A stretch of DNA of 33,001 bases from a virus: positions 1 to 33,001 of IMG/VR virus record IMGVR_UViG_3300034200_000298; one strand, written 5' to 3'. Position numbers and translations under genes: made by a program. Within the stretch, counting starts at the first letter, position 1. Every line of letters begins with the position of its first letter. Positions 4,132-5,512 of this stretch are shown here, piece after piece. A model generated the notes under the pieces. The model was not told where the DNA came from, did not search any database, and saw nothing but the letters and a program-made list of their open reading frames with translations.

Positions 4132-4184
4132 GTACGTTCATCCTTCGGGACGCATACCGCCTGATCATGGAACGGGGGTCAGGT
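4132..4184 (+). ncRNA. Candidate Downstream-peptide (glutamine-II) riboswitch
   Basis: Three pairings form an H-type pseudoknot. P1 is CGTTC 4135-4139 with GAACG 4170-4174. Inside it is TCC-TTCG-GGA 4141-4150. CCTGA 4160-4164 pairs with TCAGG 4179-4183 across the 3' strand of P1. The CGTTCATCC start, the GGACGCAT junction and the GGAACG strand are what I recall of the Downstream-peptide motif, a glutamine-binding riboswitch class of marine Synechococcus, Prochlorococcus and their phages that precedes very short ORFs. A 34-codon ORF follows at 4201, as the class predicts. The covariance-model match was not run. Confidence 0.75.
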
Positions 4185-4200
4185 ACTTCAATCCAGAACA

Positions 4201-4305
4201 ATGACTCAAGTCGAGACGGATGCCCGTGTCCGGGAGCAGAAAGCTGCTGACAAGGAGCAGAAGCTGAAGTATCGCGGCGTTGCTTACACATCTAAAACTA
4301 AATAG
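4201..4305 (+). CDS. 34-residue peptide downstream of the candidate riboswitch, YRG motif
   Basis: ATG at 4201 gives 34 codons to TAG at 4303-4305. The product is highly charged and ends in LKYRGVAYTSKTK. The YRGV-Y core resembles the short motif of DUF4278-type small cyanobacterial proteins, and peptides of 17-100 residues are the usual genes under Downstream-peptide RNAs. The nearest purine-rich sequence (CAGG, 4180-4183) lies in the 3' strand of the pseudoknot, so ligand binding could hide the ribosome entry site. The function of such peptides is not known to me; a role tied to nitrogen status is inference. Confidence 0.65.
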   Translation: MTQVETDARVREQKAADKEQKLKYRGVAYTSKTK

Positions 4306-4311
4306 CTAAAT

Positions 4312-4346
4312 AGAGCAGGGCACCTCAGAGTCGGACCCTGCTCTTA
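4312..4346 (+). terminator. Hairpin terminator candidate between the riboswitch peptide and capsid leader
   Basis: AGAGCAGGG (4312-4320) pairs perfectly with CCCTGCTCT (4336-4344) around a 15-base loop. Only a short T-rich stretch follows, so termination may be partial. It separates the small-gene cluster from the capsid leader. Confidence 0.6.
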
Positions 4347-4385
4347 TTGACTATTGGCCTTCTACGGAAGACAACCTTTAGTCAT

Positions 4386-4401
4386 GACAGTCGGAGAGAC
4401 G
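4386..4401 (+). promoter_or_regulatory. Candidate phage promoter or leader element upstream of capsid gene
   Basis: The stretch contains ACA, three variable bases, then GGAGAGACG, resembling the GCACAAGTGGAGAG elements at 29532 and 31583. It lies between a terminator hairpin and the capsid gene, where T7 has its strongest late promoter (phi10). The match is partial and no phage RNA polymerase is in the window for comparison, so this is tentative. Confidence 0.3.
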
Positions 4402-4424
4402 ACACGACAACAACCTTTAATGAA

Positions 4425-4462
4425 CACATGGTTACTCATGTGATTCTCTAAGCGCTTAGAGA
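4425..4462. repeat. Capsid leader hairpin plus 18-bp perfect palindrome
   Basis: CACATG (4425-4430) pairs with CATGTG (4437-4442). Two bases later a perfect 18-bp palindrome, TCTCTAAGCGCTTAGAGA, spans 4445-4462. As RNA these give two adjacent hairpins about 30 bases before the capsid start, comparable in place to the RNase III-processed leader of T7 gene 10. As DNA the palindrome could bind a dimeric protein. Confidence 0.6.
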
Positions 4463-4492: not shown

Positions 4493-5512
4493 GTGGCTAA
4501 CACTACCGTAACTTCTATTGGTCGCGTAAATAATACGTCGGCCACTCCTCTTGCTCTTGGTACTGCTTACGATACCAAGTATGCAACTTATCTGAAACTG
4601 TTCTCTGGCGAAATGTTCAAGGCGTATGAAAGCGCCACTATCGCCAAAGGCACTGTGCAAAGCCGTACCCTGAAGAATGGTAAGGCGATGCAGTTCATTT
4701 TCACGGGCCGTATGGAGGCTTCGTACCATGAACCCGGTACTCCGATCCTCGGGTCTGGCGATCCCCCGGTGGCTGAGAAGACCATCGTCTGCGACGACCT
4801 GCTGGTTTCCAGCGCATTTGTCTACGACCTTGATGAGACTCTCGCCCACTACAGCCTGCGTTCTGAGATCGCCGCTAAGATCGGCCACGCTCTGGCTGAA
4901 GCTTACGACAAGAAGATCTTCCGTCAGATCGCTAAGGCTGCTCGTGAAGCTCACCCGATCACTGCTGCTCCTGGCCCTGAGCCCGGCGGTAGCATCATCC
5001 AACTGGGTGTGCAGAAAGAGTACGACGCTCAAGCTCTGGTGGATGCCTTCTTTGAAGCTGCTTCCATCATGGATGAGAAGAACCTGCCCAAGCAGGGTCG
5101 TATGGCTGTGCTGTCCCCTCGTCAGTACTACGCACTGGTGAGCCAGGTTGACAGCAACATCCTGAACCGTGACTTCGGTAACACCTCCGGTAGCCTGCAG
5201 TCCGGTGAGGGTCTCTATGAGATCGCTGGTATTCCCATCAAGCGCTCCAACAACCTGCCCTTCCTGGCCGGTACTGTTGCTGCTGTGAACGGTGAGAACA
5301 ACGACTACTCCGGTAACTTCAGCACCCACTGCGGTCTGATCTACCACAAAGATGCTGCTGGTGTGGTTGAGGCCATTGGTCCTCAAGTGCAGACCACTGG
5401 TTCTGACGTTCGCACCATGTATCAAGGTGACATCATTGTGGGTCGTCTTGCCATGGGTTGCGGCACCCTGAACCCTGCCTGCGCTATCGAGCTGCAGTCT
5501 GCTCGTTCCTGA
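4493..5512 (+). CDS. Major capsid protein, T7 gp10-like
   Basis: The 339-residue product (T7 gp10A is 345) forms the icosahedral shell. It begins MANTTVTSIG. Recognisable capsid segments are LKLFSGEMFKAYE near residues 31-43, GKAMQFIFTGR near 63-73 and the central LVDAFFEAASIMDEKNLP near 183-200. The start codon is GTG at 4493; no in-frame ATG lies nearby and the N-terminal sequence fits the family. There is no convincing Shine-Dalgarno in the 30 bases upstream, which are C/T/A-rich, so leader structure may set translation. Codon choice is noticeably richer in C-ending codons than in the neighbours, as expected of a very highly expressed gene. Confidence 0.96.
   Translation: MANTTVTSIGRVNNTSATPLALGTAYDTKYATYLKLFSGEMFKAYESATIAKGTVQSRTLKNGKAMQFIFTGRMEASYHEPGTPILGSGDPPVAEKTIVCDDLLVSSAFVYDLDETLAHYSLRSEIAAKIGHALAEAYDKKIFRQIAKAAREAHPITAAPGPEPGGSIIQLGVQKEYDAQALVDAFFEAASIMDEKNLPKQGRMAVLSPRQYYALVSQVDSNILNRDFGNTSGSLQSGEGLYEIAGIPIKRSNNLPFLAGTVAAVNGENNDYSGNFSTHCGLIYHKDAAGVVEAIGPQVQTTGSDVRTMYQGDIIVGRLAMGCGTLNPACAIELQSARS

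Follow-up and report, generated by a model that had tools for sequence, protein, structure and literature searches.

The Locus and the Question It Raises

The presence of a putative glutamine sensor among the structural genes of a phage raises two questions: whether it is a genuine riboswitch, and which product it would control. The window, i.e., the whole stretch of DNA that was analysed, is a virus record of 33,001 bases containing, according to Pfam, the T7-like genes for a head-tail connector, a capsid assembly protein, a capsid and a tail tube. Its closest relatives are the Synechococcus phages S-CBP4, S-SRP01, S-CBP1 and S-CBP3, and the window virus is a virus of marine or estuarine cyanobacteria, in line with the cyanophage origin put forward in an earlier inspection of the letters alone (hereafter, the sequence-only reading). 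That reading had also proposed that a pseudoknot of the Downstream-peptide class, followed by a small ORF, lets the phage sense host glutamine and adjust either this peptide or readthrough towards the capsid gene. The elements of the putative aptamer, all on the + strand, are the following.

4132..4184, +, riboswitch aptamer of the Glutamine-II class (Downstream-peptide, RF01704; 49.1 bits by cmscan, E 3.5e-9, gathering score 33)
4135..4139, +, pseudoknot (PK) helix, 5' strand CGTTC (from the sequence; C4135 is C1 of the crystal structure, PMC6698751)
4141..4150, +, P1 hairpin TCC-TTCG-GGA (from the sequence; TCC 4141-4143 with GGA 4148-4150, TTCG loop)
4151..4154, +, linking strand CGCA (from the sequence; G4152 is G18 and C4153 is C19 in the PMC6698751 mapping)
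4160..4183, +, P2 helix CCTGATC/GGTCAGG, 4160-4166 with 4177-4183 (from the sequence and pairing counts)
4170..4176, +, 3' strand of the PK helix, GAACG (4170-4174), plus G41 and G42 (from the sequence; ligand contacts as in PMC6698751)
4185..4200, +, spacer leading from the aptamer to the start codon, presumed to be the expression platform (from its position)

A Glutamine-II Aptamer With Conserved Ligand Contacts

When the whole window is compared with all Rfam families by cmscan, RF01704 at 4132-4184 (+) is the sole match, well above its cut-off, and membership in the Glutamine-II class is genuine, as the sequence-only reading had proposed. The same reading had suggested running the covariance model of the glnA class (Glutamine-I, RF01739) as well; this class is rejected for the window aptamer, with 14.2 bits against a cut-off of 35. 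The three helices that define RF01704 as a coaxial H-type pseudoknot, P1, PK and P2, are found in the window, each where it had been noticed. P2 had been read as the five pairs CCTGA/TCAGG, which do exist; its true length is seven pairs, one of them G-U, and it encloses A33 (4167) and the 3' strand of PK.

In a Prochlorococcus Glutamine-II aptamer solved by crystallography, glutamine touches C1, G18, C39 and G40, within a site built by C19, A37, A38, G41, G42 and A33 (PMC6698751). In this mapping, C4173 corresponds to C39 and G4174 to G40, and C4153 (C19) pairs over a long range with G41. All direct ligand contacts, and likewise all of these core nucleotides, are present in the window aptamer. 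This conservation suggests that the window copy would bind glutamine and lends support to the idea of a phage reading host glutamine; the host aptamer has a Kd of 190 uM.

Pairing was counted from fixed anchors in 113 unique phage aptamers; the PK strands are fixed by the search pattern, and covariation was assessed for P1 and P2. Positions 2-6 of P2 are paired in 97-100% of these aptamers, against 48-80% when the partners are shuffled, a contrast that does not amount to a probability since the phage aptamers are mutually related; compensatory changes are nonetheless many, a single position showing as many as six standard pair types. The first four pairs of P1 are formed in 94-99% of the aptamers (at most 110 unique ones). 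P2 thus shows strong compensatory change across phage aptamers, and the covariation that the sequence-only reading had proposed to look for in relatives is found in both P1 and P2.

As for the expression platform, no conserved pairing between the aptamer and the ribosome-binding region was found, in phages or in hosts, native leaders showing no more such pairing than swapped ones. A pairing at the start codon, GGGTCA/TGACTC, is predicted for the window and is restricted to its close relatives.

A Selected Minipeptide Behind the Aptamer

Two genes follow the aptamer on the same strand.

4201..4305, +, ORF of a 34-aa single-repeat YRG..Y (DUF4278-like) minipeptide, MTQVETDARVREQKAADKEQKLKYRGVAYTSKTK (Pfam, homologues in other phages, selection)
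4493..5512, +, major capsid protein gene (Gp10A-like), GTG start (Pfam PF21703, E 3e-80, 270 bits)

The 34-codon ORF containing KYRGVAY is as described in the sequence-only reading, except that it starts at 4201, 16 nt past the aptamer instead of 17. Its stop codon lies at 4303-4305, and the next gene, which had been placed 190 bases downstream, is indeed the capsid gene, starting at 4493, 187 nt past this stop. In same-length pairs of related minipeptides, pN/pS is 0.38 in the minipeptide frame, as compared to 1.32 and 1.14 in the other two frames, and third codon positions carry twice as many changes. These results show that the ORF is real and that its relatives are under purifying selection in this frame only.

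Behind nearly every phage aptamer, about 22-25 nt past the core, lies an ORF of 13 to 60 codons that ends in YRG[VI].Y. The Y located five residues beyond the Y of YRG is invariant (112/112 peptides); YRG belonged to the filter by which peptides were selected, whereas this downstream tyrosine did not. The window peptide matches the Pfam family DUF4278 (PF14105) with 19.3 bits (E 0.0015), below the gathering score of 25.3 and over the C-terminal part of the profile only. DUF4278 matches all 16 peptides of a comparison set, 14 from hosts and two from T4-like phages, and 13 of the 16 phage peptides, the latter with E values of at most 0.1 (lowest 2.9e-4); aligned to the comparison set by hhalign, the phage peptides reach a probability of 91.6 over 19 columns. 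A single YRG repeat is present in 112/113 unique type-II phage cases, while 37 of 42 host peptides have two or three.

Downstream-peptide motif RNAs have been described as preceding ORFs of 17-100 codons for a conserved peptide (PMC2864571), and the 34-codon ORF of the window, with its conserved peptide, lies just downstream of the aptamer and within this range. As the 17-residue lower bound fits the phage peptides, some of the metagenome sequences behind the 2010 Downstream-peptide ORFs may have been of phage origin.

Comparison With Known Glutamine Riboswitches

The window aptamer has the same ligand-contacting nucleotides as the Glutamine-II RNAs (RF01704) of marine picocyanobacteria and the same place before a short YRG..Y ORF. 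It differs from them by its location in a phage genome, between auxiliary or structural genes and the capsid gene, and the linkers and P1 of the phage aptamers are often shorter. Cyanobacterial glutamine aptamers mainly go with DUF4278 genes, and IF17, an inhibitor of glutamine synthetase, has DUF4278 as its N-terminal part (PMC6316151). As in gifB/IF17 of Synechocystis, a DUF4278-type YRG..Y segment stands behind a glutamine riboswitch (PMC6316151); unlike IF17, the window ORF stops 8 residues past YRG and has no IF7-like inhibitory C-terminal region. Since 34 aa are too short for such a region, inhibition of glutamine synthetase cannot be assumed.

Glutamine riboswitches are mentioned in the literature for T4-like cyanophages, Melnitz, Mosig and AG-345-P14. 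In the T4-like phage P-SSM2, a glnA-type match scores 35.1 bits, above the cut-off, and S-PM2 has a tandem glnA-type pair of 33.3 and 24.4 bits, both under the cut-off. These aptamers precede proteins of 48 and 56 aa with two YRG repeats each, which are annotated as hypothetical in the corresponding loci (L477 and L478), and they lie near td, not near capsid genes. The window thus shares with the T4-like glnA-type (RF01739) systems a phage-borne glutamine aptamer before a small YRG..Y protein, and differs from them in aptamer class, in genome location and in having a single repeat where the T4-like peptides have two. The myophage Melnitz differs from the window as well, its glnA-type riboswitch being paired with a tmRNA (PMC9004378).

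Distribution in T7-Like Cyanophages

RF01704 scores above the Rfam cut-off in P-SSP7, P-SCSP-R27W, P-SSP10, S-TIP28, S-CBP1, S-CBP4, S-RIP1 and P-SSP3, and also in an uncultured Mediterranean phage. DNA comparison adds P-SSP2, P-GSP1, NATL2A-133, P-SSP6, 9515-10a, S-TIP37, NATL1A-7, S-RIP2 and KBS-P-1A, which brings the named isolates to 17; nearly all matches in named phages are unannotated. In at least 17 named T7-like cyanophages, the aptamer and its peptide are flanked by psbA (or the scaffold gene) on one side and the major capsid gene on the other, and the pair recurs beside the capsid gene in most of those examined. A pattern scan of IMG/VR gives at least 120 stretches; among the matches listed, nearly all come from contigs of T7-like cyanophages, where the capsid gene begins shortly downstream of the aptamer and the psbA stop often lies about 10 nt before the aptamer. 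The window, unlike many loci with the same module, contains no psbA. Among the cyanophages tested, P60, Syn5, S-SRP01, Syn9 and P-SSM4 are negative for both RF01704 and RF01739. We found no report in the literature searched of T7-like cyanophages with a glutamine riboswitch, of RF01704 in phages or of DUF4278 in phages, although an earlier mention is possible.

In some relatives without the module, the slot before the capsid gene is occupied by a tRNA-like gene, which ARAGORN calls tRNA-Cys with anticodon aca (L378 1283-1355, L391 1282-1352 and L397 1286-1356); no tRNA was found in the riboswitch slot of the window.

Aptamer and Peptide Come and Go as One Unit

Linkage between the aptamer and the peptide was assessed in two capsid-anchored sets of loci, fetched without use of the aptamer. 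Among the 122 capsid loci, 48 have both, 70 have neither, four have the peptide with a truncated aptamer, and none has the aptamer alone. In the set built on the window capsid, restricted to loci with enough upstream sequence, 12 have both (including one hybrid aptamer, see below, and one with a long P1 loop), 57 have neither and none has only one. In the set built on the P-SSP7 capsid, L488, L490 and L515 were omitted as they begin inside the capsid gene, which leaves 53 valid loci: 36 with both (33 canonical and three with a long P1), 13 with neither and four with the peptide and only the 3' half of the aptamer. Aptamer and peptide are thus gained and lost together, in the pattern of one unit, the contigs being non-independent. 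S-SRP01, whose capsid gene is close to that of the window, has neither, and the absence of the module from many close relatives indicates that it is dispensable in some settings.

Two kinds of natural variants occur at the same place. S-CBP3 and about two dozen IMG/VR contigs carry a hybrid aptamer, in which CGC...ACGG is replaced by CGG...ACGC, which turns the long-range pair C19:G41 around into G19:C41, the orientation of the glnA type. Hybrid aptamers keep a P2-like helix whose arms vary yet match; as the search pattern mis-splits their P1 in some rows, hybrid P1 counts were not used. With 21.7 and 16.1 bits, the S-CBP3 hybrid falls under the cut-off of both Rfam glutamine families. Hybrids are located at L133 2816-2861 and in L259, L267, L278, L282, L290, L300, L331, L343 and others, and precede the same kind of minipeptide. 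S-SBP1, on the other hand, keeps P2, the core 3' strand and the minipeptide and is devoid of the CGTTCA strand; its switch is possibly dead or rebuilt. Loci of this type are L131 (2503-2536), L523, L529, L533 and L537.

The Peptide Rather Than the Capsid Gene as the Probable Regulated Product

We consider, with a probability of about 75%, that the locus is a cyanophage type-2 glutamine riboswitch whose regulated product is the DUF4278-like peptide located directly behind it. That this product is most likely the peptide, and not the capsid gene, follows from the joint gain and loss of aptamer and peptide and from the presence of both hybrid aptamers and T4-like glnA-type aptamers before the same kind of peptide. 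The strongest argument comes from the T4-like phages, where glutamine aptamers precede such a peptide far from any capsid gene.

Control of the major capsid gene, one of the options of the sequence-only reading, would require that glutamine set termination or readthrough at a hairpin, or act by translational coupling. The leader of the capsid gene contains two structured elements that bear on it.

4312..4343, +, hairpin AGAGCAGGG...CCCTGCTC between the minipeptide and the capsid leader (inverted repeat)
4349..4405, +, second structured RNA, conserved in the leader of the capsid gene and separate from the riboswitch (covarying helices)

The position of the riboswitch, about 220-550 nt upstream of the capsid gene and on the same strand in most T7-like loci, and the strong hairpin lying in between would both fit such a control. 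The hairpin that had been described as terminator-like does exist, but it is not a canonical intrinsic terminator: it went unreported in a terminator scan, and it has a loop of about 15 nt, a weak T run and the tail TTATTG. Moreover, both the hairpin and the second RNA are kept in S-SRP01, which has no riboswitch; the capsid leader thus has conserved RNA elements of its own that persist in phages devoid of the switch. Finally, in L040, L042, L045 and P-SSP10, the aptamer is more than 1 kb away from the capsid gene or has other genes in between, and the peptide accompanies the aptamer throughout, whether the latter is canonical, hybrid or glnA-type, even where no capsid gene is nearby. Readthrough control of the capsid gene is thus unsupported, and we regard this explanation as unlikely.

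The second RNA is present in 181/205 capsid leaders, and in L122 and most T7-like cyanophage leaders; its probe sequence occurs once each in 6 of the 12 phage records searched, P-SSP7, P-SSP3 and P-SSP10 among them. RNAalifold returned only three pairs on a poor alignment, and anchored counting in 51 non-redundant sequences was used instead. The inner stem is 100% paired (41-59% when shuffled), the hairpin with the loop GAKAGA is 98% paired (51-68% at its three variable positions when shuffled), and the outer helix is mostly 96-100% paired (54-85% when shuffled). No credible Rfam match was found for it, even in permissive scans. As further observations on this leader, the loop of the hairpin at 4312-4343 (GCACCTCAGAGTCGGAC) recurs unchanged on a different stem in S-SRP01, S-CBP1, P-SCSP-R27W and an uncultured phage, and a perfect 18-bp palindrome, TCTCTAAGCGCTTAGAGA, lies at 4445-4462, shortly 5' of the capsid start, its centre being kept in relatives.

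Alternatively, the small ORF could be a mere leader peptide, in which the position of the ribosome regulates downstream genes in an attenuation-like manner and the aptamer is an added sensor. Its very short length, often 17 codons, and the hairpins found downstream are compatible with this scheme, which purifying selection at the amino-acid level, the invariant Y five residues past that of YRG and the homology of the minipeptide to host proteins make unlikely. In addition, attenuation by Gln-tRNA is not a common feature, as glutamine codons are absent from the P-SSP7 peptide, MKVTFVYRGVAYTRVIG. That the module is a host-derived passenger which at present does nothing for the phage, retained by chance or moved around together with psbA, is likewise improbable: its patchy distribution (absent from 70/122 capsid loci) and the retention of just the aptamer 3' half by S-SBP1 and its relatives would suit it, but compensatory changes, conserved ligand contacts and coding selection extend across very divergent phages, and the module is also kept without an adjoining psbA, as in the window.

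A Proposed Glutamine-Responsive Peptide in Infected Cells

If the peptide is the regulated product, the aptamer RNA would fold during late transcription of the psbA/capsid region, and L-glutamine, when abundant in the cell, would bind in the PK helix and stabilise PK and P2. Translation of the 34-aa peptide would thereby be altered, and most likely switched on, as the type-2 switch of Prochlorococcus is reported to turn expression up upon glutamine binding (PMC6316151). The peptide could then mimic a single repeat of the glutamine-controlled DUF4278 proteins of the host and act on host nitrogen metabolism.

The Glutamine-II class itself is known; its setting in phages is unexpected and widely conserved. 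Nitrogen is often limiting for marine picocyanobacteria and their phages. As a tentative extension, which we hold to be possible rather than likely, T7-like cyanophages as a group could use a glutamine-gated minipeptide to manipulate host nitrogen assimilation late in infection, with aptamers evolved on their own, including the G19:C41 hybrid that Rfam misses at threshold. Pairs of phages with near-identical capsid genes that have or lack the module, half-lost aptamers (S-SBP1) and swapped types (S-CBP3) provide natural experiments, and the peptide is worth assaying, since glutamine aptamers and YRG peptides are repeatedly found together, in T4-like as well as T7-like phages. Since most of the named T7-like cyanophages examined have the pair by the capsid gene, viruses with the glutamine switch and its minipeptide probably sense the nitrogen status of the cell they infect, and the sensor and selected peptide that model phages such as P-SSP7 carry in their capsid region offer a testable route by which these viruses may read and adjust host nitrogen.
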